A stretch of 64,000 nt of DNA from Geosiphon pyriformis (Eukaryota > Glomeromycota > Glomeromycetes > Archaeosporales > Geosiphonaceae). This document shows positions 16,098 to 38,970 of the stretch, one piece after another. The notes below the pieces were generated by a model. It saw only the letters and a program-made list of their open reading frames with translations, was not told the DNA's origin and did no database searches. Position 1 is the stretch's first letter; every line of letters starts with the position of its first letter. The position numbers and the translations under genes were made by a program. The stretch is from positions 1-64,000 of the forward strand of contig JAAOMT010000201.1 in NCBI GenBank assembly GCA_016748015.1, given 5' to 3'.

Positions 16098-17000
16098 ATG
16101 TCCAAATTTGTCAAACCAATTTACAAATTCGAGATTGAAAAAATGAGACCTCAATTCCCTCTTAATCTTACCGCCAACGACTTGATGGCTAATGCCAAGA
16201 GAAGACTTGAAGTGACAGGGAAAGTTACAAAAATTCCTAACAGCTTTATGGCATACCGAATGGCAGTCAAAAAAAATCTTATTTTGAGCAAAAATATTCC
16301 TGGAATGCGAGAACTTTCAACAATTTCTGCCACTCTTTGGAAAACGGAACCGGAATGGGTTAAGGCGGAATATCAATCCCTTATGCGTGATGCACAAGCT
16401 CAACTTCATCTAATTGCCAATTTTAAATTACCATTGCAAATAATTCAATTTACCAATCAAATGCAAAAAAGCTTAGAGCCATCTTCTCGAAATAAGTTTG
16501 AATCTAGAAAAGGTTTTCCTCGATCTTACGATGACCGATCAAAGACTCGGTCGAATACAACAAATTCCTCTCCTCCAACTACACCAGAATCTTGGATAAA
16601 ATCCGATGATAATAGCTTTATTTATGAAAAGAGAAACCCACAAAGCAAATTTTTACTATTAAATGAGCCCGACATGGTTGAAAATATTCTGACTACTCCT
16701 TTTGACCTCGGGGTCAATACTGTGTTAGAAAGCGACATTTCTTTTGATTTTCATGAGGGTCAGGCTCAAAGAAATAACATTTTCAGCCAATTTTCGAACT
16801 CAAGACCTTTCACAGATATGGAAACCTTTAGAAATCCAGGTTTACTCCCCAATTTAAATAGCTCCGTTAATTTATTGGATTTTTGTCCAATTACCCCAGT
16901 TTTAGAAGAAATTTGCCTTGAAGATCGAGTGAAAAACTTAGAACATTTTTTTTATCACATGAATTTGGAAAAAGCAACTTTTATGAACTTTTTTCCTTAA
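16098..17000 (+). CDS. MATA-HMG-type HMG-box protein
   Basis: A single exon of 300 residues. The N-terminal family block RPQFPLNLT is at 17-25. The HMG box begins at IPNSFMAYRMA (46-56), with the core Trp at 81 in LWKTEPEWVKAEY, and ends near residue 105. The basic YPxYxYxPR tail normal for mating-type HMG boxes is not present. The middle is Ser/Thr/Pro/Asn-rich and probably disordered. Near the end is LEDRVKNLE (274-282), a heptad-like motif shared with four other paralogues here. HMG boxes bind the DNA minor groove in the nucleus; the role of the many copies in mycorrhizal fungi is not established. The gene is convergent with the next paralogue (minus strand, 18.9 kb). Confidence 0.9.
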   Translation: MSKFVKPIYKFEIEKMRPQFPLNLTANDLMANAKRRLEVTGKVTKIPNSFMAYRMAVKKNLILSKNIPGMRELSTISATLWKTEPEWVKAEYQSLMRDAQAQLHLIANFKLPLQIIQFTNQMQKSLEPSSRNKFESRKGFPRSYDDRSKTRSNTTNSSPPTTPESWIKSDDNSFIYEKRNPQSKFLLLNEPDMVENILTTPFDLGVNTVLESDISFDFHEGQAQRNNIFSQFSNSRPFTDMETFRNPGLLPNLNSSVNLLDFCPITPVLEEICLEDRVKNLEHFFYHMNLEKATFMNFFP

Positions 17001-17560
17001 TTTAATAATTTTTTAGCAATTCTTAAACAAAGCGTTGAGGCTTTACATCATTCAAAGAATATTTCTTGACAATGTTAGCCAAGGAAAATATTAAAAATTA
17101 CATTTCCCTCATAAGCAAAATCCTGGTATTTTATAATATATAGCAAATATTAATAATAATAAAAATATTATGAAACAATATGACCTAAAAAAATGTTTTT
17201 TTCAAAAAAAAAATCTATAAACATTCATTGGAACAAGCATTATTTATATTGTAGATTTTTTGTTTAGTCAACAAATTTTTTCCTGAAAAAGCAAAGCTTC
17301 ATTCACGTGCCAAATTTACTTTAAAAGTGGCTTTTATGTAGTGCTAGCCTAATATATAGTCATTACATATGTGGATTAAGTCAAACTCGGTAAGCTAAAT
17401 TTGGTTTAAATAAACAGACATTACCTTTTAAGACTCGGTCTTAATATCCGATGTGCTTTACCTCATTAAAAATTTCAAAAAAAGCTTAGATTACAATTTC
17501 GAATGTCAAACATGCATTGCCAAGTGACACCGAAACTGATTTTTCTGTATAAACCATCCA

Positions 17561-17602
<42 letters not shown>

Positions 17603-17668
17603 CATTATTATGATGGAGGAAGGAATAATAATAATAATAACAACAACAACAACAACAAAAACAACAAC

Positions 17669-17706
<38 letters not shown>

Positions 17707-18899
17707 TCTTGAATTATAATATTCAATGAAAATTTTGGCTCAGAATAATAAAAAATATATCCTCTTTGATTTCCATTAAAATTTTGTATATACGAATAAA
17801 AGATAAATTAAAAAAACTTTTAACGTTAAATCCAATTTTTAGATACTTACCAAAGAGTTCTTAAAATTTCTCCAAGAGTAATATACTAAATATTAATTGA
17901 AAATCAATAATTTTTTTATTTTAAACTATAATTTGATATATTTTTGCATTAAGAAAGCTTCTTTTATTTTGATAAACTAAAATTTAAATCAATTTTTTAG
18001 TTTTCTCATTTCTTTAAAACATTGAACTAGTTTGGCTGTGTATAGTTTCCTTATAAGATGTATTTTTAATTGTGTTTGCATATGACAAATCTAGGGCCCA
18101 GATTTATAATTACCAATTTTTTAATGTGTTCATCGCAGATTATCAAATCAATTAGCCCGAAAAGATTTCTTTAATATTCGGTCACCAGAATAAATATCTG
18201 TTACAAAAATAGCAAAGCACATGGTAATTTCTTACTTAAAGCTAAAAATACTATCATTGCCATCTTTAGGAATTAGTCACACTTGTGATACTTTATTTGA
18301 GCTTCCTCTTTCGCTTGAAAGTAACAATCACTTTGGATTTTCAAGTTTATATAAACAAATGTTTAATTTTTCTGTTGTTATTTTATTCATCACATATCAC
18401 ATTTATTAAATAGTTTAACTTTCTATTTTTTTAAAAGCCATTTTTTTTTTTACAAAACTGATTCTATTTCAAAAAATAATAAAACATCGTTACATATGTT
18501 AATAAAATTTTGAATAAAATATATTGTTGGTGTCTAATAATCAAATATGACATTTTTTTAAATAAAAATATTAACAAATATTAACTTAATATATTTAAAT
18601 TTATTAAATACAATCTTATTTATTTAATATTCTGGTTAGTTTGTCTAGCCTTTCTTAAATTCCTTAAATTCATAATAATATTTATGTTCATAAATTTTTG
18701 GTGAGCTAATGAAAGCAATTGAAACACTTAATATTCTTGAAAAGAATTACAAAGGATATTTTGAGTGAAATAAGATAGGAGGCTGAAATTAAAATTTCAC
18801 AATAATTAACAATTTTCATAGTAAATTGAATGAATTTAAAATTGAGTGGTTTTTTATATAAAGGCATAAATAACTTAAAACATATCTTATTTGGAGTTG
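17001..18899. other. intergenic region between convergent HMG genes, with composite microsatellite
   Basis: No coding sequence is supported. It contains the ATT/AAT/CAA composite repeat at 17561-17703. A frame at 17475-17726 (-) consists of homopolymeric amino acid runs encoded by that repeat and is not a gene; a frame at 18221-18409 has no motif. Confidence 0.55.
17561..17703. repeat. composite ATT / AAT / CAA microsatellite
   Basis: An (ATT)n run (17561-17611) is followed by a short spacer containing ATGATGGAGGAAGG, then (AAT)n, (CAA)n and (AAT)n to 17703. The ATT and AAT halves are inverted copies that could pair as a long hairpin. A similar AAT-AAC composite occurs at 58287-58410. Confidence 0.95.
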
Positions 18900-19568
18900 C
18901 TAAAGGTTATGATTAAACAAGATTGCACACTTGGCTTCAAGTATCGCAATTCTTTCTTGTAGCGAATTGGTTTTATAATAAATCCTAAGTTCTGGAAACC
19001 AGGAATTAATAATACTTTCAAGCAATACAGCGCGATTTTCAAGTTCAAATTCATTGGCATCGGTAATTATGGGATGATCTGGTATAGATGAAGCTTGAGA
19101 GATAGACAGTTCAGAGATATCAGACATGTATTCTGCCTTTACCGAGTTCGAAACTAAATCGCTGCATTCTAGCCAAGTAAATTTAAAACTATCCTGAGAG
19201 GATGTTTTAGTTTTGACAGTTTTGTTTGAACCAGGATCAGCCTTAACAAACTGAAAATGATTATTGTAGCGGATGAATTCATTAAATGACGTACTTGCTT
19301 CATGACTGAGTTTCTTATATTGTTTTTTAATCGAAGGAGTTTGAGATTTCCAACTTTTAGAGACAATTCCAGAGATTTCTCGTTGTTTTTTTATCCCATG
19401 CAGGCTCCCGGATTTTTTAAGTGACATTCTATATAGAAAAAATGCGTTGGGAATTTTTTTTTTTTCGCCATGTTTCTGAAAGTGATTGACCGCGTTAGAA
19501 ATTATCTCCTCCACAGTTAGATTCAGTGGATGTTCCGGCTTTTGAAATTACTGATTATCACTAGTCAT
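18900..19568 (-). pseudogene. MATA-HMG-type gene with early nonsense codon
   Basis: The frame is open for 204 codons from a GTG at 19514. The family's N-terminal block (KPEHPLNLT) lies upstream in the same frame, and the only plausible ATG is at 19568. Between them, codon 7 is TAA (19550-19548). With that codon read through, the protein would be about 222 residues. Counted from the GTG, the HMG box starts at 21 (IPNAFFLYRM) and contains SWKSQTPSIKKQY (54-66). Two C-terminal motifs follow, LENRAVLLE (158-166) and LQERIAILE (185-193), the same doubled arrangement as the neighbour at 21.4 kb. Either a recent inactivation, a sequencing error, or translation from a downstream start; the otherwise intact frame argues that any loss is recent. 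Confidence 0.75.
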
Positions 19569-21382
19569 CGTAACTTTTATCGTGAAAAGAGTTTAAATTG
19601 ATTGTTTTTAAGAAAAACTAAACAATTTCCTGTGAAGAAAAGCGAGAGAATAAATGTGAGGCTTATTCTCTAATAAAAATACAAGCATCAAGGCTTCTTT
19701 TTGTACTTTTCAAACCATTTTCGGCTGTGGAAAACGCCCAAAAATTTTCGGTTTTCTTTAATGTGTTTAGCTAATCTTTTTAATTATTCTGGAAAATCAT
19801 TAGAAAAAAATCTTGCGATTAAAAAAGTTTTGAAATTGGATCATCAAGTGATTTTGTTTATAATGAAAATGAATGGCAAAAATTATATCACCAGACAATG
19901 TCGATCTTAAAAAAGTTAAGCCTCTGTCTCATTTTGTAGATGATAAAGAGTTTTGAAATTCGTTTGAAAATCTACATTGGGATGATCGTCCTAATTGGCA
20001 CTTTTTTGAATCAAATTATGCAATCAAAATATTTCTTGCAATTCAAAATTCAAACTGAACCTCCTTTTTTAGCAATAATATCATTTAAAAATGTTGGACT
20101 TGAATGCCAATAAAGTCAATTTGAAAGAGTAAAATCTTTATTTAGAATTCTATTGATATTATAAATTCTTAATTAATTGAAAAGACTATTTAAAATTTTT
20201 CATTCTTGATGTATGCAATATCCCGATTTGAACTTTTCGGATTTTTTGTGATAAAGAGTAAATAATTCTCCTGAAAATTTTTCAAAGGACTTAAACTTTT
20301 TGAATTTAAACTATGATCAATTGTAATGTTTATTTGGAGAACTCAAAAAGTTGAGAGGCTCGGGGAAATATCTCCAAATTATTTGAAAAATTTATGCACT
20401 TCTCAATTAAAAATGACAAAATCTAAGAGCATTGGATTCTAGAAAGAAAGAAAGAAGGAAAGAAAGAATGAATGAATGAATGATATTGATATCAATAGAA
20501 TCTAAAATATGCCCATTTTTATTTCTAATTTATGAATTCAAGTATAATCTTTAATATGTGATGAATAATCTTCTTTTTGAAAAAAACTTAACACAAGAAA
20601 ATTTTCGATTTCTGTCGGATCAAAACATCAAAATTATGACCCAATGCATACCGCTAAAGAATTGATTTTACATCACAATTATTCGGGCATAAAACTGCGA
20701 CATATCTATCCATAAAAAATAAAAAAAGTTGATCATTGCTAATAAGAAGAAATGATACTCTTTTAAGCACCTAAAATTGGGTGCCGCTTTTACTGTGACC
20801 CGGGTACAAAAGGATAGTAAGGTTTTAAACTTCCCAGGATTGTAAATAGTTTTAAGTAGACAAACGCCAATGTCAGCCACATCTTCAGTTTTTTGTGAAA
20901 CATTCTCGCTTTTAGAAAAACCAATTACATATATAAAATCTTTTGAAGGGAAAAATTAGGTATTCATAATTAGGTTCTACATTTTGATCTGTTTACTATC
21001 CTTTTTATTCAGGTACATATTTAGATTTTTAAAAATGTGACACATTTTTTTCATTACCATTGGACTTATGCAAATTCATTCAAGTTTACTTTATCGAGAA
21101 ACTCTCTGTTTTTTTCGAACTAAAGCAATAAAGAAACGTCATGGACGTCCCCCAGATGTCTTGTTTCCCTTACAATAGAAATTGTTATCCATACACTTAA
21201 ACAATTAATAATTATTGCTTGTTTTTTTTTTAGATGGACAAGTTCTAGAATGAAAAAAAATTTAGTCCTCTTAGGACGTGTTTTTAAAGGTTCTAGATTA
21301 TTGATAATTATTGTAACCTAGCATATTTTTTATCGGGTATTTTGGTAAACTATCTTAGAAAAAAAAAGGAAATTTTATTCAT
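19569..21382. other. intergenic region, no gene recognised
   Basis: It contains a short AGAA/AATG simple repeat (20441-20482). The frame at 20668-20880 (-) has no domain; its 5' part shares a short phrase (VADI) with sequence near 58180, perhaps a weak dispersed repeat. No other structure was found. Confidence 0.45.
20441..20482. repeat. AGAA / GAAT simple repeat
   Basis: Tetranucleotide AAAG/AAGG units are followed by GAAT units. Confidence 0.85.
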
Positions 21383-22099
21383 TCAATTGAAAGAATGAAA
21401 ATTCACGAGTAGTCTGGAAATTGTAAGCTCGAGGAGATACACTCTTTCTTTAATAGTGATTGGAATATTTTGGTCAAATTCAAAACTTTCTTGATTCAAA
21501 ATGTTTTTCACAATTTTTTCGAGAGATTCCACGCGGCTCTCAAGATGGAACCATGAGTTTTCAGGTTCATAATGTTCATTATTATAAAAATTTTGTGAAA
21601 TAATTGAATCAGGTTCGATTGATTTGACCATAGAATTGAAATTTGAAAGAAACGGTGTAGGAGCTAAATATAGCGAAATAAGATGTATTCTTTCTTCCTC
21701 ATCAACGTTACTATTGAAATTAACTGAAGAAAGAGGATAAAATTTGAGCCGTTGTAATGTATGAAATTTTTTCCAAATTTTTTCAAAAGAATTTCTGGCT
21801 TCCTTTGAAATATTTTCGTAATAAGATTTAACATGTTCTGGTTCTTTTTTCCAATGATTTGCTGCGTTTTGAGCTAGATGGCGCATATTATTATCCATGG
21901 TTGACTCGATTAAAAAATTTCTCAAATCCATCTTGTATATAAGAAACGCATTTGGAATTTTGGTGACTCTCCCAGTTTCATTTAATTTTTTTATTGCATT
22001 CTTCATTACCTTTTCCACTGTTATTAATGAAAAGGGTGGTCTTGAATATTCTGGCAGCACATGCAAATAATTCGAGGTTTCGTTAAGTAAATTGGCCAT
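21383..22099 (-). CDS. MATA-HMG-type HMG-box protein
   Basis: A single exon of 238 residues, ATG at 22099. The N-terminal family block is reduced to RPPFSLITVEKVM (20-32). The HMG box starts at IPNAFLIYKM (48-57); HWKKEPEHVKSYY (82-94) marks helix 2-3; the box ends near 105 without a YPxYxYxPR tail. Two C-terminal heptad-like motifs are present, HLESRVESLE (185-194) and IKERVYLLE (216-224), about 30 residues apart, as in the broken neighbour at 18.9 kb; the two are likely sister copies. The stretch FEKIWKKFHTL (105-115) also matches the pseudogene at 38.2-39.0 kb. Probably a nuclear DNA-binding protein; targets unknown. Confidence 0.88.
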   Translation of the reverse strand: MANLLNETSNYLHVLPEYSRPPFSLITVEKVMKNAIKKLNETGRVTKIPNAFLIYKMDLRNFLIESTMDNNMRHLAQNAANHWKKEPEHVKSYYENISKEARNSFEKIWKKFHTLQRLKFYPLSSVNFNSNVDEEERIHLISLYLAPTPFLSNFNSMVKSIEPDSIISQNFYNNEHYEPENSWFHLESRVESLEKIVKNILNQESFEFDQNIPITIKERVYLLELTISRLLVNFHSFN

Positions 22100-24696
22100 T
22101 TCAAATGGTTGACTTACAGTGTGGTGACAAAAAAATTCTAAAGATCAACAGTCGAAAGTTACCCACATATAAAAACTTTTTTTTTTTTTTTAGCCAATTC
22201 GAATTCCATAAAATATACTTCATTTCCACTATTTCCAAAACAGAAATAATTTGCAACTTTGTATATATAGTTTACTTTAGAAATGAATCTATTGATTAAG
22301 AAACATAGCAAGCAATAGCTAATCTATTTCTGTAGTGAGGGAAAAAATAGGAAAAATTAAGTACAGAGTCTTTAATAATTATCACAAAAAGATTATGGGA
22401 CATGTATCGAGAAAAGTAGGTAGGCTGAAATATATTCATAAAAAAAAATTCCTTTTTGTCCCTATAAAAAATTGCTTCTAAACTAAATAAATGAGGTATA
22501 GAAATTTCATATCACACAATTGTTTGACATTCAAGATTATTTGAATATATGAAAAACCTACTAATTAATAATACGTCAAATGTTGACAATATTTTAAAAA
22601 AGAAACGTGTTAAATGGTCCAAATTTCGTCTTAATAAAAACTTATTTTCTGATTAAAGAGCATTTTAACTGTTTAAAAACACTGTTAAACATTACAAGGT
22701 ATCTTGCAAAACCAAAAGATCGTACAAAAATATTTGTGTGGGATGGTTTTTTATGAGGAGAAAAACTAGCTTATTTTTTTTATGCGTATTATGAATGCTA
22801 AGGGGAAGTTAATGGGATAATTGGCCGTTATTTAGTCCGGCTCTAAATCCCTTTATATAAGATTCCTCTTGGTGATAAAATTTCACTGATAAATTCTAAT
22901 TATAGCCGAAATGGTTGTGAATGACAAAAATGACAGACCTTTGATTGTGATCATCTCATGTAAATGAAAATGTTTGACATAAATCTCAAATTTTTAAGCG
23001 AAAAAATTCCTTTATTAGGGTAGATCTCAAGAAAAAAAACTTAAAACAAGGTGACAATATGAGTAAAGTTTTTAGTTTATTTAATTTTTGACAAAAGGGT
23101 GATAAATAAAATTTTTTACATTTATCGATGGAATTTTTAAGCCCGCTATGCATCATAGCTAAAAGTCGAATTCACAATATAAATTGAAAAAAAATTTGAA
23201 TAATTAGGTATTTGAAATCAGATTAAGGTAAAAAGTGCTATTAAAACCCTTATTTGTAACTTTAAACGAATTGGATGAGGTCACAAATATCCAATAAAAA
23301 AAAGGCTCACAAAGTTGTTCATAAAGTTATCCTTTTAAAACAAAATTAATAAATTCAAAATAATTTTCAAATCAGAAAAGAGAATAATAATAATAATAAT
23401 TGTATCTTGTTGAAAGAATTATTCTTGGGTTAAAGTATAAATAAGATGCAGGAAAATTTAAAAAGGCTTTTTTCTTGAAACCAAATCCGTCACTTGAAAA
23501 ACATGATTATTAAAATCCATAAAACGTAAGGTTCTTTTATATTCCTTTGAAAAAAAAAAAAAACTAATTTACTGAATCTTAAAAGAAAATCCGAAACAAT
23601 TGATTCACCCTAAGATTTCAACAACATTTGACAATTTTTTTTAATAGTACATTTTTCTTAATTTTAATCTAATATATAAAGAAAAATCATAATTCATAAT
23701 TTCTGAGGTTTCATATACTTCATATTTGATGTCTACGTTATAATATTAACTATTTCTAAAAATTAAAAGTTTTGCTCATAAATTTTTTTTTCAACATTAA
23801 CTGAGATTAAATTATCATAAGCATTTTTAGCATTTCAATCAGATTTCATAAAGGCTTAGAGAATACTGGATTCTAAAATTTTTATTTATCATTATCTATG
23901 GCACATTTTAAATCTTATTTTTTTTTTTTTAAAAAAAAAAAAGAATTTTGTATCTTGCTAGTGATTTCAAATAAGGGTAATTGATGTGTTTTATTTAATA
24001 AATTGAATCTTTGAGGCTGAAAAAAACGTAGTACTGTTTTGAATCTTTAGGCGAAAACTTCTTATTTTGGTTATTTTTAACAGAAAAGCGATTAGCTTAT
24101 AAATCCTCGCAAAATATAAACCTTAAGCTCACAGCCTCACCTACCATTTTTGTATGTTTTTTAATCTTGATGTTTCATTTTAACTTGACAGGTCTAACTA
24201 TTTTAACTGGATTGATCTTCTCTCTTCAAGCATCTAGTAAAATATTATTCTTGGAATTTTCACAAAGTTATTCGTGTTTAAAAAGTTTTCCTTTCAAGAT
24301 GAAATTAAAAGCTCGCGTGTCCAACTTGTTTTTGATGATCATACGGTAATTTTGAATTCTATGGCAGTGCTTTCTTAAAGCGGAAAAAATAATATACAAT
24401 CAAAAGCAAAGCCTTTTTAAGGGAAAATGACCCAAATTACTCAAACGGTAGATGTATCTGCATTTGTTTGAAAGTCATTTTCAATAATAAACATCAAGTT
24501 ATAAATTTACAGTTTATATTGACTTTTGAAAATTCCCTCACTCAATATGCGAGACTTTAATATATTTGAGTGTAAATTTTTGGAAATTTGTAAGCGAGAA
24601 AGGGGGCACTAATTCATTTTTTCTTCTTTTAATCTGTTTTTGAATTTATTATTAAGGTTTTAGTTTTCTATCTCTTAAAATATAGGTTTTGACTAT
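22100..24696. other. intergenic region, no gene recognised
   Basis: AT-rich with several long A and T runs (for example near 23920-23945). Frames at 22105-22299 and 24167-24349 show no motif. Confidence 0.5.
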
Positions 24697-25794
24697 TTAC
24701 ATTTGATCAATAATTTTGTTGCAGCCTTCAGTAATTAAACTTGCTACAAGGCATTCTAATACTTTGATTCTTTGCTCTAAATTTGAATTTTGTTTGACCG
24801 TGTTTTTCATATTTGGTATACGGTCAGACTTTAGGTTATTTGCCAACACAGCAAGTAATTGGGTAATCGAAGATTTAGAGACTGAAGGATTGATTATTGG
24901 TGTGGTAACAGGTGAAGGTAGAGTATTTGAGGAAGTCGTCTGCCTTGGGAATTCTGCAAAATCGAGATCAGGAGAAACCGTCAAATATGAATGACTAAAT
25001 GAGGGTGTAGTTGAAGTTGATGATGGGCCTTGTGAAACTTGTTCGTTGAAAGCTGGGATGAAATCCCATGTTTCTTGCAATGTGGAATTAGAAGGATTGA
25101 TTTCCCACACTTCCGGCAACGGATTGTCAAAAGATTCAATTGTAAAATTTTGGATAATATGGGTCGTCGTAGGTGATTCGATAGGGCTTGATGGCAATTC
25201 TTTATTTGAAAAAGTTTCTAATAATCCAGGATTGTCGTTCCACGGTTGTTGTTGTAATGGACTTACAGTTACATCATTTATATATTCAGGAGAAAGGGAT
25301 GAATCATCAAGTGATTGAGGTTTTTCAAAAGAATTTGATGGTAGCGAAGTTTCGTAGTTGTTGTATCCCACTATTGTTGACTGTGTAGGAACACTTGAAG
25401 TAAAAAATGGTAAGATATTATACTGATTTGGGATTTGATGAAAGAAGTTTTGAGCCTCGAGCGCAATTTCATTATATTTTGCTTTAACTAATTGCGATTC
25501 ACGAGCCCAATACTTTTGTGCTAACGTACTAAAATTTCGAACATAGGGGTTTTCCTTTTGAATTGCCATTTGATAGGCACTAAAAGCAGTAAGAATTTGA
25601 CCGGTTTCCAACGCTTTGGATGCAATCTCTTGAGAAGTGATAATAGGAGGGAATTTTGGTTTCAATGAATCAGAATGAGCCGCGCTCAAATTTCTGAGAG
25701 TAGGTTTAGCAGGATTTTTTAGCATTGTAGTTTTTTTTTTGGTTTTTTTTTTTTCAAGATTTAAACGAATCCAATTTATAAGATAATGAACCAT
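24697..25794 (-). CDS. divergent MATA-HMG-like protein
   Basis: The frame is 365 residues from 25794. The first 23 residues include a poly-Lys run encoded by an A-rich tract, so the start may really be the second Met (codon 24, ATG at 25725), giving 342 residues. The family block KPKFPPIITSQEI is at 45-57. The box region is degenerate: the IPNAF motif is replaced by ILTAFSAYQMA (67-77) and the loop is shorter (NPYVRNFSTLAQKYWARES at 82-100), although YW and LVKAKY remain. The middle is long and Pro/Ser/Thr-rich. The C-terminal motif LEQRIKVLE (339-347) is intact and very like that of the gene at 31.3 kb. DNA binding may be altered, since the altered residues lie in helix 1. Intact frame length argues that it is still constrained. 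Confidence 0.82.
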   Translation of the reverse strand: MVHYLINWIRLNLEKKKTKKKTTMLKNPAKPTLRNLSAAHSDSLKPKFPPIITSQEIASKALETGQILTAFSAYQMAIQKENPYVRNFSTLAQKYWARESQLVKAKYNEIALEAQNFFHQIPNQYNILPFFTSSVPTQSTIVGYNNYETSLPSNSFEKPQSLDDSSLSPEYINDVTVSPLQQQPWNDNPGLLETFSNKELPSSPIESPTTTHIIQNFTIESFDNPLPEVWEINPSNSTLQETWDFIPAFNEQVSQGPSSTSTTPSFSHSYLTVSPDLDFAEFPRQTTSSNTLPSPVTTPIINPSVSKSSITQLLAVLANNLKSDRIPNMKNTVKQNSNLEQRIKVLECLVASLITEGCNKIIDQM

Positions 25795-27197
25795 CGTGAT
25801 GATTTATAATCATTCGCCAACTGATGCCAGATTGGCTAAATGATCTTACTCGATTTAGGCAATCTCTTCGCAAGCGGTTGGATTTTACGCCTCATCTTGA
25901 CTTTTAGGGAAACGTTGAATGATGTCATCCAGTTTCGTTGCACGATTTTACTAACGATAGCGGTTGTAAGACATCTTGAGGCTTCTAATTTCCGAAAATC
26001 TTTGGCTATATTAAAATTAACACAGGACTTGCATCGCAGTTTCTAGAATAAGCAAAAAGAATGGAAGTCTTAATTTCACATTACGTGCATTACAATGTAA
26101 ATTAATTTGCAATGAAAAACAGGGACTATATAAAAATTTTTGTCAAAACACTATTATTTCAACCCTCAAAAAGGAGCAAAAACTTTTTATTTTTTATTTT
26201 CATTTACAGAAAATTGTAAACCAAATTTTCGATTTCAAGGAAAAATAATCCTCATGTGTAACCTATCTAATGTAACTGAGAAATCAAAACCCTTGCTTTT
26301 GTTTAACTTTTTAGGAAATTTTCGCATTGTAATTTTATTGTGCGTGGAGAAAATTTCCGAAAAATGATCTTCAATACTCATTTATTGATAACGCAACAAA
26401 AAAGATTCTCCGACTGGTTTTGTCAAGCATTGCAGGGTTGGATTTTCTAAGCCCACACATGGCAACAACTTCTTAAATTTTTTGCTTATCAACTTTTCTC
26501 AATGAGCCTTATAATGACTAATTTTTGCAGTTTCTACAAGCTATCTTATCTATATTTAATATATAATAACTATTTTAAAACCAGTGGGTCAAAATCCAAA
26601 CTACAAATTCTTTATTATTGAAGATTGCCGTAAAATAAATATTTTCTAGTAAGTAGTTGAAGATAAAATTCAGAGAAACTTGCATTAAAAATTTAGAAAA
26701 TTGAATTAAAGATTTTTTGAACGTAGATATCGAGTATCTCATTCGATAATAATATCATAATTTTCAAATTGAATATGATTTAGGGCTCAAGCTAATGATT
26801 ATTCGATATTTCAAAAAATCAACATTAGTATTGAAGTGTCAAAGAATAATGATTTGACAACAAGATCCAGAAAAAGCGAAAGAAAGAATGGGAAGAAGCA
26901 TTAAAGAAACTATATTTTTAATAGTCAATTTCACGCTATTTCTATAATAAGTTTGCTGAATGAGCCCGTGTTTCCAAACTAGAATTGATTTTGTGTAAAC
27001 TCATTAAATTAAATTAGAATTAAATCTTGAATAATGCATATATCAGTATAAAATCGAGGGACACATACTTTGAGACGAAACCGTCAAAATTACACACCAA
27101 TATCATCTTGGATTTCAATATTTTCAAAATTTCCCTTCATAACTACGACATATTCTCGAAATGACACTTTCCATCCTGAAAAAAATTCATTAGGCTT
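25795..27197. other. intergenic region, no gene recognised
   Basis: Small frames at 25840-26046 and 26140-26367 (+) show no motif. The block 25820-26045 is less AT-rich than its flanks but cannot be assigned. Confidence 0.45.
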
Positions 27198-27464
27198 TTA
27201 AATTCTTGCTGTATCCAATTCCGTAACATCATAAAAACTAAAAGTCATTCGACGCAAGGATATAGTGCTCTCGCCTGAACTCAAAGCTTCCAGAATTTGC
27301 CCAAGGACCTTCCAGAATGATGAAATCTTAAATTCTCGCAGGTAAGGATTGTGTTGTTGTGCTTTAATAATAGTTACTATTTGCGTTGTCTCGATAATTG
27401 CCTCTGCTATTGGTCTTAAGTTGAAATCAATTAAATAATATTCCAACGTTAAAAGATTATTCAA
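27198..27464 (-). pseudogene. possible relict of an HMG-family copy
   Basis: An 88-codon frame contains the order IAEAIIETTQIVT then HNPYLREF then FW. This parallels IASKALETGQILT, ENPYVRNFS and YW of the divergent paralogue at 24.7 kb, but the helix 1 core (FSAYQMA) is absent and the downstream part shows no similarity. It lies on the same strand between two family members. The similarity is short and seen only by eye, so this is tentative. Confidence 0.25.
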
Positions 27465-30400
27465 AGTAGCGGTTTTTATAGTGTTCCTATCAGGATTTTT
27501 TATTTGATTTCTGAGAAAATTTATAATGAATTAAGCATGAATGTGTCGGAAATAAAAAGGCTTTTCCTATTTTGCATAAATTAATTATGAATAATAAACT
27601 TTAAAACTAAAAAGTTAAGATCGTTTTTAATACTAAATTTAAATGAAGTGGCTTATTAAACATTATAAAATCAGAGACTGGTTTGTAAATCTCTTTGAAA
27701 AAAGGGGCGAAAGTGTCTGGAAACTAAAAATAGAATAAATATAATCAAACGGCGAGATAAAATGAAATTTTCAATAGGCTATTTTCCAAAATTTCAGCTA
27801 TTAATACAAAAACCAATAAATAAACTTGGGCTTGGTTCATTTATCTATTCAAGGCGGCAAAAGTTTCAATCTGTGATCGTAGTTTGAAAAAAATATTTAA
27901 TACAAAACTTTTCATAAAATTCCAAATCAAAGCAAAAAATTGTTGATCTTCTCAAAGATTTCTTTATGGAGAATTCGCAAAAACAATGTTTCAAAAACTT
28001 AAGATGCACAGTTATTTTAATGCAACCCATTATTTTTTGGATCCTTGGACTTTAAAGAATAATTTTAAAGTTTCTAATACGATTAATCTCTTGGGCTAAT
28101 TTAGCACACCAATTTGGTATAATCGAAGTTCATAAAACTATTAATTACACATATAAGAAAAAATTATACCAGTACAGCAGCTAAGCTCAATTTTAATTCG
28201 GCACATTAAATTTGTCCGAATTCGAACAAAATAATATATAGTGTCATACCATATAATATAATAAATTCGAAATTCATATTGCCTTTTATTGGAAAAGTCT
28301 GTAATTGTCAATTTGAAACTTTAAAAAAGCAATAATTAATATTGAAAATAGGTTTAAAGTTTGGTGAATTGGGAATAAAGTTTTCGGCCATCGCTCCCTG
28401 ACAAAAAATTTAGATTCAGTACTCTTTATTTGTGACGCAAATATTTTATTATTAACATTAGAAGCTAAACTTTCTAGCTTTGATTGTTTCTTTTTAAAGT
28501 GAAAACTGATGATAGACTTAAAAATGAATTAAGTTCTAAAGATTATTATATCATTCAAAAATTAGACCAAATTGATTGTTTTCGATCTTAGAATAACATA
28601 TTTTTAATATTAAACACACCTGATACAAAGTTTCTTGCACATCTTATTCAAAAATTTGTGTTTATACTCTGGTAATTATAGATTTTTCAAAGCATTATCT
28701 TATTTAATTATCAAAGTATTTCTCCATCTTTTAATTGATATTATTTTTGAATTGCATAATAATTTCGACTTTTTTATTTCGATTTTTCATTTTATCAATA
28801 TATCACATATTAAACCAATAGTGAAAATATAAAGTAATGAAAAAATTGGGTTATATTATTTTTAGATAAAATATGACAATAAATAAAGCTCAAGATTATT
28901 TTGGTGTAGTCATATTATTCTATTGGCTCAAAGACCAAAATTCTCAAGCTTATTTTGTAAATTATACTTAGAATTTCTTAGTATTTGTGAAATTTTGGTA
29001 TTTATCTATTATAAAATTTATAAAGAAGTTACAATATTTGATTTAATAATTAAATTTACAAAACTTTTTATAAAAAAGTGAAGAAAATATTAAAAAGGTT
29101 AAAAAGTCAAAATTTTAATTACAACATTCAAAAACAAAGTAAAAATATATTCAAAATATATTTGAAATTTCAAAGATTTTTAGCACAAGAATTTGTACTT
29201 TAAATTATTAATTTTTAAGTCGATCCCTAAAAGTTTTTATACAAGTTGAAAGTTTTTAACTTGTAATTTGACAAATTCTGAATTTTTATGGGTCTATAGA
29301 GTTACAACAATAAACTAATAGAAAAAGCAATTAATTCTATAAAGGCAAGAATTTTGTTGATTTTAAGAATTCTCCATTTATTTTAAGGTTGAAAATGAAT
29401 GTCTTTCATTGTACAACGTAAGCGATAAATATTGCTTTAATCAGTTTTTCTTAACCATAGGTAGATATAAACTAAGCTAAGATTCGTTATATTTAAAAAT
29501 TTTAAAAAGTACAAACTTTTTTCCATATATTAGAAACTTAAAAATATATTTTAGGCCAAAAAACCAATCTTTTGAAAAGAGTTCAACTTTGTGACCAAAT
29601 ATATTGCAAAATTACTAAATTAACAATTGCTGAAAGATTAAAATTCTTAAGTAAATTTCGCTTAGATTTTTAAATGAAATAATTTATTTAGGAAATTCAA
29701 GATTTTTCAAGATTTCATTAATTCAATCCAGACCAAAATCTTTTGGTTTTCATTTAAATTCTTCGAATTTGATATTAAAGAAAATAATCCTTCAAATCGA
29801 ACCCAGTATTCAACAAAACGTGCACCATTTTCAATTTTTATTAATAATAGAAGACACTTTCTCTTGAAATAAACATAAAAAAAAATTAAACAGGGTATCA
29901 ATCTGAATTGCTAAGCATTCAGACTTAACGTTTTGCCCCATTTTAAAAATTCTAATACTTTAAATCTGTTTCAAAGAACGAAAAATTGGATTTTTTTAGG
30001 AAAGTGGATTTGGAAAAATATTCAAACACTTGAAAAAATTATATATGTTCACAAAAACTAAATAATATTTTTAAAAATCAAGAGATCATTTTTTTATTTT
30101 CAAAATATATAACTTACCACACAATATTAATTTAATTTTTTGTGGAGAATTTTGGCACACTAGTAGTCATAAATAAATAAAATTATGACTGCCTTTCAAT
30201 AGGGAATTTCATAATTCAGCAGCTCCTAAAAGGAGTTTTGCACCTGATCTATTTTGGAATGGATCTTCAATAAATTTCAAGTTAATTTTCTTTATACAAG
30301 TTTCTAAAATTTAAAATCATTAATCAAAATTAAGGCTCAAAGAACCTCTTATAAGAAAATCTATAATTTATTTGTGTCTTGTTTGAGATTAGCGCAAAGC

Positions 30401-31335
30401 GTAATAATTTTCATTTTCATTTTCCAGTGTCAAATCTGGAAAGGTTCATTGAGGACAACTAAAAATACGTGCACCGAAATTCCTAAAAAAGTTACAGATT
30501 TTCAATATCTAACAAACTAAAATGAATTTTTAAATTAATATTAATAAGAAATGGTCGTCGGACACAAAGGTTTCAAGTTCAGCTTTTTTAAAATAATAAT
30601 AATAAATTTTTTGACCTACTCAGGCCTGATAAATAGCTTGACATTTCTAAACCTACCTTTTTTAGCTAACAATCTTTTTCAATTTAATCAAGGACGATTT
30701 TTGTGTTACTATTGATATCTGTATTTTTGATTAGGTATTCCATCTATAATTAGTATTTCTTATTTAGATAATAATGATTCTATTCTCTTTAAGTATGTTA
30801 TTAGTAATCCAAGATTAAAATATTCATACCATCGATTCTTTATGAGGATTATTAAATACCCAGTTTATATTTCAATATTTTAATTAAATTGTTTTAGATT
30901 GGAAAACGGTAGGACGAGTGCTTTTGCCCCTCAAAATGAGGTTTAATATCAAAAAGAGGCATAAATCGTTACTTAATATAATCTTAATTTCAAATTCTTA
31001 ATATGTCTAGAATTCATAGGAAAGTCAAGTTTATTTATTCTTAGATCTTTTGAAAAAAATTTACACTTATATTTAATATTTTAGTAAAAACATAAAATAA
31101 TATATATATCAATAGTTATTTTCGATAAATCTTAATATTTTCTTAAAAACCTATAATCTATAAAAAAATAATTTTTAAATATTTTATGATCCATAAAAAT
31201 ATTTTCTAAATTTAAGATTTTGAGATATTTTGTTTTTACGACCTCAAATTTTTTCTGAAAATATTGCTTTGTTTTTTTCAGCTGGTTTGGGAAAAGAGAT
31301 GAAATGATGATATCAAGTCATAGGAAATGTGCCTT
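27465..31335. other. intergenic region, no gene recognised
   Basis: Very AT-rich. Frames at 28635-28832 (+) and 29707-29901 (-) are short and without motifs. A 7-bp hairpin (TCTGAAT / ATTCAGA) near 29900-29925 looked tRNA-like but lacks other tRNA features. Confidence 0.5.
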
Positions 31336-32253
31336 TCACGCCCGATTGTGCCCTAAAATTAATGCAGCAACTAATTGCTCAAGGGCCACAATACGATTCT
31401 CAAGATTTTCTTTGACAATGTTGCTTAACCGCTGAGCAATTAAAATTTCATTCATATTCAGACTGTTTACGTTTGAAGAAGTTGTCAAAGTGTGACATTC
31501 TGGAAGATAGTTTTCAATGTTCATGTCAGAGGGGGAACAACTTGTTTCCGTTAGAATTGGAAAAAAATTTGTATTATTCTCGGAGATTGGAGAAAAAGGA
31601 TTATTGCAGGAGTCGTCTTCGAAAAAGGGGATAAAGTTTTCTGATAAATCGGGTTGGGGAAAGTAAAAGGTGTCCTTGGGTAGAGAAATTTGTGATTGAG
31701 CAGGGCTTGGTAATTCTAATTCCGAAGAATCATCTTGGTTGAAAACAGGTGATAAGTTTAAAAATTCTTCATTTCCTGGTATTGACTCATTGTGTAATGA
31801 GCTGGGGATTTCAAATTCTTGACTCTCAAATGATGAAATCGATAAGGAGCTTGGTGAATGCTCGTTTGGATTCTGTTCCGAGGGCGTTTGCTGTTGTTTA
31901 TTATTAATCTCTGTTGAAATAACTCTCTGACAATATTTGTCGAACAAGATCTTGGCATCATGTATAAGTCGTCGATACTTTGCTTTGACATTCTCGGGCT
32001 CTTGTATCCATAAATTACCAGCAATAGTCGATAAATCACGCATATTTGGGTAATAATCACTGACTGCCAATTCCTTTTGAAGAGCCATTCGATAGGCTAA
32101 GAATGCATTTGGTGTTTTCGAAAGTTTTCCAGTTTGGCGAAATTTTTCCACAGCATTGGCCATCAATTCTTCGGAAGTAAGGGTTGGAGGAAATTTTGGT
32201 TTGATCATCGTGAACGTTAAATTATCATTAATATTGAAAAAATTTTCAACCAT
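31336..32253 (-). CDS. MATA-HMG-type HMG-box protein
   Basis: A single exon of 305 residues with ATG at 32253. The family block KPKFPPTLTSEELMANA is at 18-34. The HMG box starts at TPNAFLAYRMALQKEL (47-62), continues through NMRDLSTIAGNLW (70-82) and EPENVKAKYRRL (85-96), and ends near 107 with no YPxYxYxPR tail. A Ser/Pro/Asn-rich acidic middle (115-270) resembles an activation-type or linker region. LENRIVALE (284-292) followed by hydrophobic LVAALIL forms the C-terminal motif. A second Met at 16 is an alternative start just before the family block. This is one of the best-preserved members in the window and is on the same strand as the three paralogues at 18.9, 21.4 and 24.7 kb. Confidence 0.92.
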   Translation of the reverse strand: MVENFFNINDNLTFTMIKPKFPPTLTSEELMANAVEKFRQTGKLSKTPNAFLAYRMALQKELAVSDYYPNMRDLSTIAGNLWIQEPENVKAKYRRLIHDAKILFDKYCQRVISTEINNKQQQTPSEQNPNEHSPSSLSISSFESQEFEIPSSLHNESIPGNEEFLNLSPVFNQDDSSELELPSPAQSQISLPKDTFYFPQPDLSENFIPFFEDDSCNNPFSPISENNTNFFPILTETSCSPSDMNIENYLPECHTLTTSSNVNSLNMNEILIAQRLSNIVKENLENRIVALEQLVAALILGHNRA

Positions 32254-38192: not shown

Positions 38193-38970
38193 TCAGATGT
38201 CAAGATAGGAAATTCTTAAAAGTTGGCCGGAAATTAATTTATACATGTAGTTTAGAAATCTCTGTTTATCATTAAAGATTTCCAACAAAAAAATACCTTG
38301 TTCAAGCAACAACTTTCTTTGACAATTTGCTTTTGAGATTAACGAATTTCTTCTAATTAATTCTTCATTTGGAATTTCCCGAGAAAATTCTTCCAGAGCT
38401 TGGGGCTTCGATTGGAAGACTTGATGATAATTTTTATTAGGAAAGCTAGGTGATAGCAAATTAGAATCGGCTGGAAACCTTCGCATGAATCTAATAGATT
38501 TTATACTTTTAAGATTGATTACTTGCTTGACTTTTAGATTATGAAAGTCATTTTTTTTAGATTGAATATTTTGGTCTCTTTGTTATGATTTGCTGCCATA
38601 TAGATTGCGTTCTGGTTTGAAGATGAAGATGGACGACATGTAAAGGGTGAAATTTTTGCCAAATGCTTTCATAAAAATTATTTGCCTCAAGTGATAATGA
38701 TTTATATTTATTTTTTACAAATTCTGGCTCTATTTTCCAAAGAGCTGAAGCGGTGGCAGAAAGCACAGGCATATCCAATTTTTTATGATTTTCTTACAAT
38801 TTTTTCTGAATTGTCATTCGATAAATCATAAAGGCGTTTGGAATCTTTATGATTTTTCCGTTTTTCTCCAGTTTTGTGATAGTATTTGAACTTATTTCTT
38901 CCTTTGTAATGATTGTAGGAAATGGGGGTCTAAAATTAAATTTCTCAGGTTCAGGAGGACCTCAAGACAT
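38193..38970 (-). pseudogene. decayed MATA-HMG gene
   Basis: From an ATG at 38970, the frame reads through the family block (RPPFPTIITKEEI) and the HMG start (IPNAFMIYRMTIQKKL), then LWKIEPEFVKNKYKSL. It is broken by TGA at codon 3 (38964-38962) and TAA inside the box (38796-38794). The same frame stops at 38557, and the C-terminal region continues in another frame (38486-38193), implying at least one frameshift. IWQKFHPL after the box matches IWKKFHTL of the gene at 21.4 kb, so that gene is its closest relative in the window. Confidence 0.88.

Follow-up and report, generated by a model that had tools for sequence, protein, structure and literature searches.

The HMG-box, or MATA-HMG, family is expanded in arbuscular mycorrhizal (AM) fungi. 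A tandem of five HMG-box genes has been described in R. irregularis, three of which are induced on co-inoculation (PMC7490403, available part), and more than 100 HMG-box factors have been reported in Gigaspora rosea (PMC4771724, available part). In the parts available, these accounts cover the box, homology, expression and copy number, and a C-terminal helix is not mentioned. Among helix-pairing elements, the RhxxhE trimerisation motif (Kammerer et al. 2005) is one in which, according to the available part of PMC5940361, the Glu at heptad position e bonds the Arg at g' of the preceding heptad in the neighbouring chain. Here we analyzed a window of 64,000 nucleotides from Geosiphon pyriformis (positions 1–64,000 of contig JAAOMT010000201.1), whose proteins have the HMG box in common with the AM-fungal family and with SexM/SexP of Mucoromycotina. 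The window is AT-rich (about 27% GC) and contains eight open HMG-box frames and one interrupted box copy. Five of the eight frames carry a short motif near the C-terminus, which probably belongs to an oligomerisation module.

The motif occurs seven times in the window. The open reading frame (ORF) at 16.1 kb carries LEDRVKNLE (16917–16943, + strand), and the frame at 18.9 kb carries LENRAVLLE (19017–19043, − strand) as its first and LQERIAILE (18936–18962, −) as its second unit. The 21.4 kb ORF is also doubled, with LESRVESLE (21518–21544, −) followed by IKERVYLLE (21428–21454, −). Single units are found in the 24.7 kb ORF (LEQRIKVLE, 24754–24780, −) and the 31.3 kb ORF (LENRIVALE, 31378–31404, −). 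Each of these 9-mers occurs once, and they begin 20–53 residues before the C-terminus. Arg4, Leu8 and Glu9 are identical in all seven. The initial annotation had listed seven such motifs in five copies and called these three residues invariant; every motif was recovered and now has fixed coordinates, and the invariance holds in 7/7 copies. The motif is missing from the other three HMG-box ORFs of the window (37.1, 50.1 and 57.0 kb).

The genome (124.7 Mb in 406 contigs, with the window on contig C207) was then surveyed for HMG-box loci, which are given L-numbers below. It holds at least 118 PF00505 matches and at least 90 matches to the 31.3 kb protein. The census covers 54 whole regions and 8 shorter stretches from 7 others, of 94 further regions, so that its counts are lower bounds. 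With frames running off the locus end, nested frames and identical frames excluded, 91 non-redundant box-bearing frames were obtained. At scores of 85 bits or more with a family box profile, 17 of the 36 frames carry 26 strict copies, all located after the box and none inside or upstream of it, while 2000 shuffles of the same 36 tails gave 0.11 copies on average and no more than 2 in any one shuffle. The strict motif was found in 0/27 frames at 60–85 bits and in 1/28 under 60 bits, the latter being the 24.7 kb gene. Three extra boxes of at least 85 bits (L093, L094 and L096) have no motif in the tails inspected, which brings the overall count to 17/39. Because introns were left out of the frame model, units encoded by a separate exon may be overlooked; such a unit was found in L015, and L014 probably has another.

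An independent test used a profile trained on the seven window units only and scored on 78 genes outside the window, excluding tails shorter than 30 residues and tails sharing identical last 40 residues. Above the threshold of 3.8 bits, a level passed by 0.1% of 23,400 shuffled tails, were 13 of the 31 genes with a box of at least 85 bits and none of the 47 others. Five of the real tails scored even higher than the best single shuffle (11.3 bits). These results indicate that the motif is not peculiar to the window but recurs across the genome, in one part of the family. The proposal of a shared family motif outside the box thus extends beyond the window for close members, but is limited to one clade.

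The anatomy of the unit was derived from 27 stacked units, in which R4, L8 and E9 are present in 27/27 by selection. The conserved unit spans about 16 residues in the heptad register d1-g4-a5-d8-e9-a12-d15; the 9-mers first noticed are real but are part of a unit of about 16–18 residues. Position 1 is Leu in 22/27 units, and position 5 is Val or Ile in 21/27 (LIVMF in 25/27). At the positions outside the selection, LIVMF residues are found at position 12 in 25/27, position 15 in 23/27, position 11 in 20/27 and position 16 in 22/27, compared with 25% in the linkers (binomial p 1e-7 to 1e-13 for positions 11, 12, 15 and 16). A helix-capping residue (S/T/N/D) stands directly before the unit in 19/27 cases, where 36% is expected (p 3e-4). 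In this register, R4-h5-x-x-L8-E9 corresponds to the RhxxhE coiled-coil (trimerisation) signature, and the units do carry R-h-x-x-h-E at g-a-x-x-d-e. Among the 13 second units of doubled tails, position g is Arg in 11 and Lys in 2, and position e is Glu in 13/13 (9/13 also being pattern-selected). In the sister clade, L031 has Lys and L030 has Gln at the Arg position.

Structure prediction gave helices at the units. For the last 59 residues of the 21.4 kb protein (21386–21562, −), AlphaFold2 run with 12 paralogous tails (13-row alignment) modelled a helical hairpin with helices at residues 2–24 and 37–58, at a mean predicted local distance difference test score (pLDDT) of 86.5. The predicted template modelling score (pTM) of 0.67 suggests that the two helices pack on each other. 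The whole 31.3 kb protein, modelled with 21 relatives, reached a pTM of 0.42. It shows the three-helix box (residues 50–64, 71–84 and 87–120; pLDDT 92–98 over residues 41–110 and 82 at 111–120), an extra pre-box helix at 27–41, and a linker of 137 residues in which neither helix nor strand is predicted (block pLDDT 38–59). Two C-terminal helices follow at residues 258–280 and 284–304 (31342–31482, −), with a block pLDDT of 78–90 over 261–300 and lower values at both ends; the unit lies within the second. By this model, single-unit proteins may form a hairpin too, with a degenerate first helix. The short helix proposed initially is therefore supported by the heptad pattern at unselected positions, the N-cap preference and two AlphaFold models, and its suggested role in dimerisation or partner binding is plausible.

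We regard it as probable that the carriers are HMG-box proteins in which an oligomerisation module at the C-terminus is tethered to the box, and by family they are probably transcription factors. We infer self-association from the heptad register and the salt-bridge pattern, as we infer the partner number and the effect on DNA binding. Such a protein would have three parts, namely the DNA-binding box, a fast-evolving disordered linker and a module of one or two amphipathic helices of 16–18 residues. The HMG box binds DNA, as is known for the family, the linker would act as a flexible tether, and the C-terminal helices would join two or more proteins. The d/a positions (residues 1, 5, 8, 12 and 15) would form a hydrophobic stripe, and Arg at g (4) would make inter-chain salt bridges with Glu at the next e (9). 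In the C-terminal half, the hydrophobic g (11) and e (16) would widen this stripe into a broad face suiting a helical bundle. Two units would form a hairpin that pairs with another hairpin, and proteins with one unit would contribute either a lone helix or that helix together with a degenerate first one. By clustering two or more boxes, the module could raise DNA affinity and specificity, and mixed paralogue complexes would be possible; hetero-pairing between paralogues is put forward as a hypothesis.

The same broad hydrophobic face could instead belong to a short docking helix for a non-HMG partner, such as a co-activator, a co-repressor or a mediator-like subunit, with the doubling providing two docking sites. 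The unit is short and terminal and sits on a linker of about 40% S+N+P+T, as docking motifs often do. However, the invariant Arg (g) and Glu (e) beside the a/d hydrophobics are the signature of helix-helix self-pairing, and the doubled tail was modelled as two helices (pTM 0.67) whose suggested mutual packing would partly bury the docking faces. Docking is unlikely.

The linker also bears on whether the tail might fold back on its own HMG box and regulate DNA binding, since both lie in one polypeptide with a flexible linker between them. The acidic tails of HMGB proteins are the known general case of a tail regulating its own box. The tails studied here, however, are by eye not strongly acidic, the linkers of 16 carriers range in length from 69 to 233 residues, and the full-length model (pTM 0.42, interface errors not reported) gives no evidence of the tail packing on the box. 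Autoinhibition of this kind appears improbable.

To place the carriers in the family, a tree of 68 boxes was built by a quick IQ-TREE run on 95 columns, which left 37 of 65 inner branches open. All 19 carriers fall in one 32-row side of this tree (97 in the Shimodaira-Hasegawa-like approximate likelihood ratio test, SH-aLRT), and 17 of them within a 24-row core clade (support 98). The strict pattern follows the box in 0/49 rows labelled non-carrier, including all 36 rows of the other side. Parsimony requires 8 presence/absence changes, against a shuffled mean of 16.7, which implies losses or several gains of the unit.

The carriers were labelled 13 double and 6 single, with strict doubles in 9 of the 19. 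In the nine strict doubles, the two units are 26–39 residues apart. First units start 40–59 residues and second units 18–29 residues before the C-terminus. Weaker second units are seen in L011 and L012 (Lys for Arg) and in L024 (ME for LE), with in-place scores of 2.6, 0.6 and 0.5 bits. In L015 the units lie in a second open frame, the first being strict and the second scoring 10.2 bits. In L014, a Lys variant of the unit scores 5.5 bits in another frame. Across genes, the first units and the second units fall into two separate types (mean BLOSUM scores 23.4 and 23.1 within, 20.0 between; permutation p 0.002; the register of the L015 second unit was set by hand in this comparison), so the doubling seems older than the paralogues. 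The doubling reported for two paralogues was correct for both, but it was an undercount, as 9 (strict) to 13 (relaxed) of the 19 carriers are doubled. In L015 (1417–2428, +) and L014 (752–1884, −), the box and the C-terminal unit are split between two frames that overlap or adjoin, and the splice signals there look plausible by eye; some family members may therefore contain an intron.

The sequence between box and motif was compared over 120 pairs of 16 of the 19 carriers (L015, L032 and L037 excluded). A local alignment z above 3 was reached by only 3/120 linker pairs, as had been anticipated when this stretch was described as unalignable, whereas 120/120 box pairs and 91/120 tail pairs reached it, the tail value being partly circular because the tails were chosen by the motif. 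The median z values are 33.2 for boxes, −0.2 for linkers and 4.6 for tails. The linkers are 69–233 residues long, with about 40% S+N+P+T. At the invariant Arg all six Arg codons are in use. Identical codons are found in 80/351 pairs at Arg4, 94/351 at Leu8 and 211/351 at Glu9, where codon usage alone (sum of squares of the observed usage) gives about 0.22, 0.23 and 0.67. Near-random synonymous codons at fixed residues indicate that synonymous sites are saturated and that the constraint has acted at the protein level over long times.

These data bear directly on the view that the unit is a remnant, that is, a generic leucine-rich helix spread by tandem duplication without a selected function. 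The carriers do lie in one part of the tree, partly as tandems (L011, L012 and L015 within 7 kb; L025 and L026 within 6 kb), and some core-clade rows have no unit. However, the linkers are scrambled past alignment while the unit is kept and the codons at its invariant sites are randomised, which argues for selection on the unit residues and makes a remnant very improbable. Still less probable is a nuclear export signal, whose leucine-rich spacing is seen as L-x3-V-x2-L, because the fourth hydrophobic residue of the classical consensus would fall at position 10, which is hydrophobic in just 4/27 units, and because the invariant Arg and Glu would be left unexplained.

Several observations weigh against a C-terminal oligomerisation module. 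The unit is missing from the box frame in 7/24 core-clade rows (with L014 counted as a non-carrier) and is therefore dispensable, and its 2–3 heptads are few for a coiled coil to be stable on its own. The second units of L011, L012 and L024 (0.5–2.6 bits) rest on position and visual judgement. The single unit of L010 sits straight after a serine run, so a hairpin is not present in every carrier. As to the models, the first C-terminal helix of the 31.3 kb protein is perhaps borrowed from doubled rows of the alignment, and Foldseek gave no PDB match at E ≤ 0.001.

The five carrier frames of the window differ in length and box score. The 16.1 kb ORF (16098–17000, +; 300 aa) scores 101.7 bits with the family's own box profile and 22.8 bits with PF00505. 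The 18.9 kb frame (18900–19547, −) has 215 codons from stop to stop (PF00505 26.8 bits), and the 21.4 kb ORF (21383–22099, −) encodes 238 aa (26.3 bits). The 24.7 kb ORF (24697–25794, −; 365 aa) has a shortened, divergent HMG box (56.8 bits with the family profile). The 31.3 kb ORF (31336–32253, −; 305 aa; PF00505 24.3 bits) has the top-scoring box of the family profile, which matches all five carriers at 56.8–116.6 bits. With the PF00505 cut-off at 25.4 bits, the 18.9 kb and 21.4 kb frames are above and the 16.1 kb and 31.3 kb ORFs slightly below it, and the 24.7 kb ORF has no PF00505 match at E ≤ 1. The 24.7 kb box has lost several residues near the usual PNAF stretch and escapes PF00505; its C-terminal unit is still intact. 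In the 18.9 kb gene, the box frame comes right after an in-frame TAA (19548–19550, −) and has its first ATG within the box, so this gene may be truncated, contain an unseen exon, or be a pseudogene. A conserved stretch, KPxFPPxxTxEELxxNA, precedes the box in the 31.3 kb protein (32131–32202, −) and its relatives. It was modelled in part as a helix (residues 27–41) and may extend the HMG fold in a way specific to this family. The HMG box copy interrupted by a stop (TAA) at 38560–38961 (−) is probably a decayed paralogue. More HMG matches are found on the same contig past the window, at about 64.5, 74.8, 85.8, 406 and 481 kb.

Other C-terminal sequences were also observed in the family. HMG-box frames L079, L082, L095, L098 and L100 are without the helix unit and carry a PSIF peptide (as in IPSIFG) that lies 1–8 residues from the C-terminal end and may be a second C-terminal motif restricted to one clade. 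Members of a six-row sister clade (L030, L031, L032 and L037) have longer coiled-coil-like C-terminal stretches, which are preceded by cysteine pairs in L030, L031 and L032; L037 has a single Cys. On contig C114, three near-identical HMG frames (L055, L056 and L057) end in a different zipper-like stretch, ...KKENETLKELLQTRLG, which points to more than one origin of C-terminal coiled coils.

These results bear on the question of what maintains around a hundred or more HMG-box genes in such fungi. With an interaction module that is conserved and clade-specific, the family would divide into members able and members unable to pair. The module would provide testable residues (Arg4, Leu8 and Glu9) and predict which paralogues could work together, and if mixed pairs form, the expansion would be a testable combinatorial system rather than a mere copy list. 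A bolder and rather doubtful extension is that one clade of this mating-type-like family forms a combinatorial network, in which single and double units would give specific homo- and hetero-oligomers, single-unit members would cap or divert double-unit ones, and the paralogue set of each nucleus or strain would define its regulatory complexes. If true, such a network would follow a logic similar to that of paired mating-type regulators in other fungi. A description of the C-terminal helix was not found in the available parts of the open-access literature on these HMG-box genes (PMC7490403, PMC4771724, PMC3834313 and PMC4219462), a scope that does not include the main family paper, Riley et al. 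2014, and the term 'C-terminal' is absent from the text of PMC3834313. Priority for the unit cannot be claimed.

In comparison with known systems, the best PDB match of the unit profile is the GCN4 zipper chain 2o7h, reading HLENRVARLEKLV (E 7e-6). The further PDB matches are mostly synthetic and natural coiled coils, including reovirus-type sigma-1, and the CREB zipper was matched at E 0.047. Sigma-1 is a trimer and CREB a dimer. The R-h-x-x-h-E letters at g-a-d-e are common to the units, to GCN4 2o7h and to parallel trimeric RhxxhE coiled coils such as L1ORF1p. In contrast to these trimers, the units have 2–3 heptads per helix, often as two helices joined by a loop. Since the CREB zipper has the same letters, a trimer is not established for the units. 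Trimeric as well as dimeric coiled coils contain the RhxxhE signature, so it gives no preference for a dimer over a trimer or a four-helix bundle. According to the available part of PMC6250738, 2o7h was used for drawing the coiled coil of a trimeric assembly.

The Gal4 dimerisation domain (PF03902) shows the same unit pattern, with Gal4 VESRLERLEQLFLLIF having a charged first half and a hydrophobic second half. It is the Pfam family touched by the largest number of tails (4/13), all below its cut-off of 22 bits; the best E over the 13 tails was 0.047, and the 21.4 kb tail scored 13.4 bits. Profile comparison with Gal4 gave a probability of 5% and a pairwise E of 0.0078 over 18 columns, and the scan of the 13 tails found no Pfam family at its cut-off. 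The Gal4 domain is N-terminal and adjoins the Zn2Cys6 domain, whereas the module here is C-terminal to the HMG box, and the likeness is likely convergence. The bZIP zippers (CREB 1dh3, HY5 2oqq) have LENRVAVLE-type heptads as in the units, and bZIP_2 touched 1/13 tails (E 0.3). Unlike in bZIP proteins, no basic stretch was seen before the helix in the tails inspected by eye, and DNA binding would fall to the HMG box. The likeness to zippers and Gal4 would thus reflect a shared coiled-coil logic, with no demonstrated kinship.

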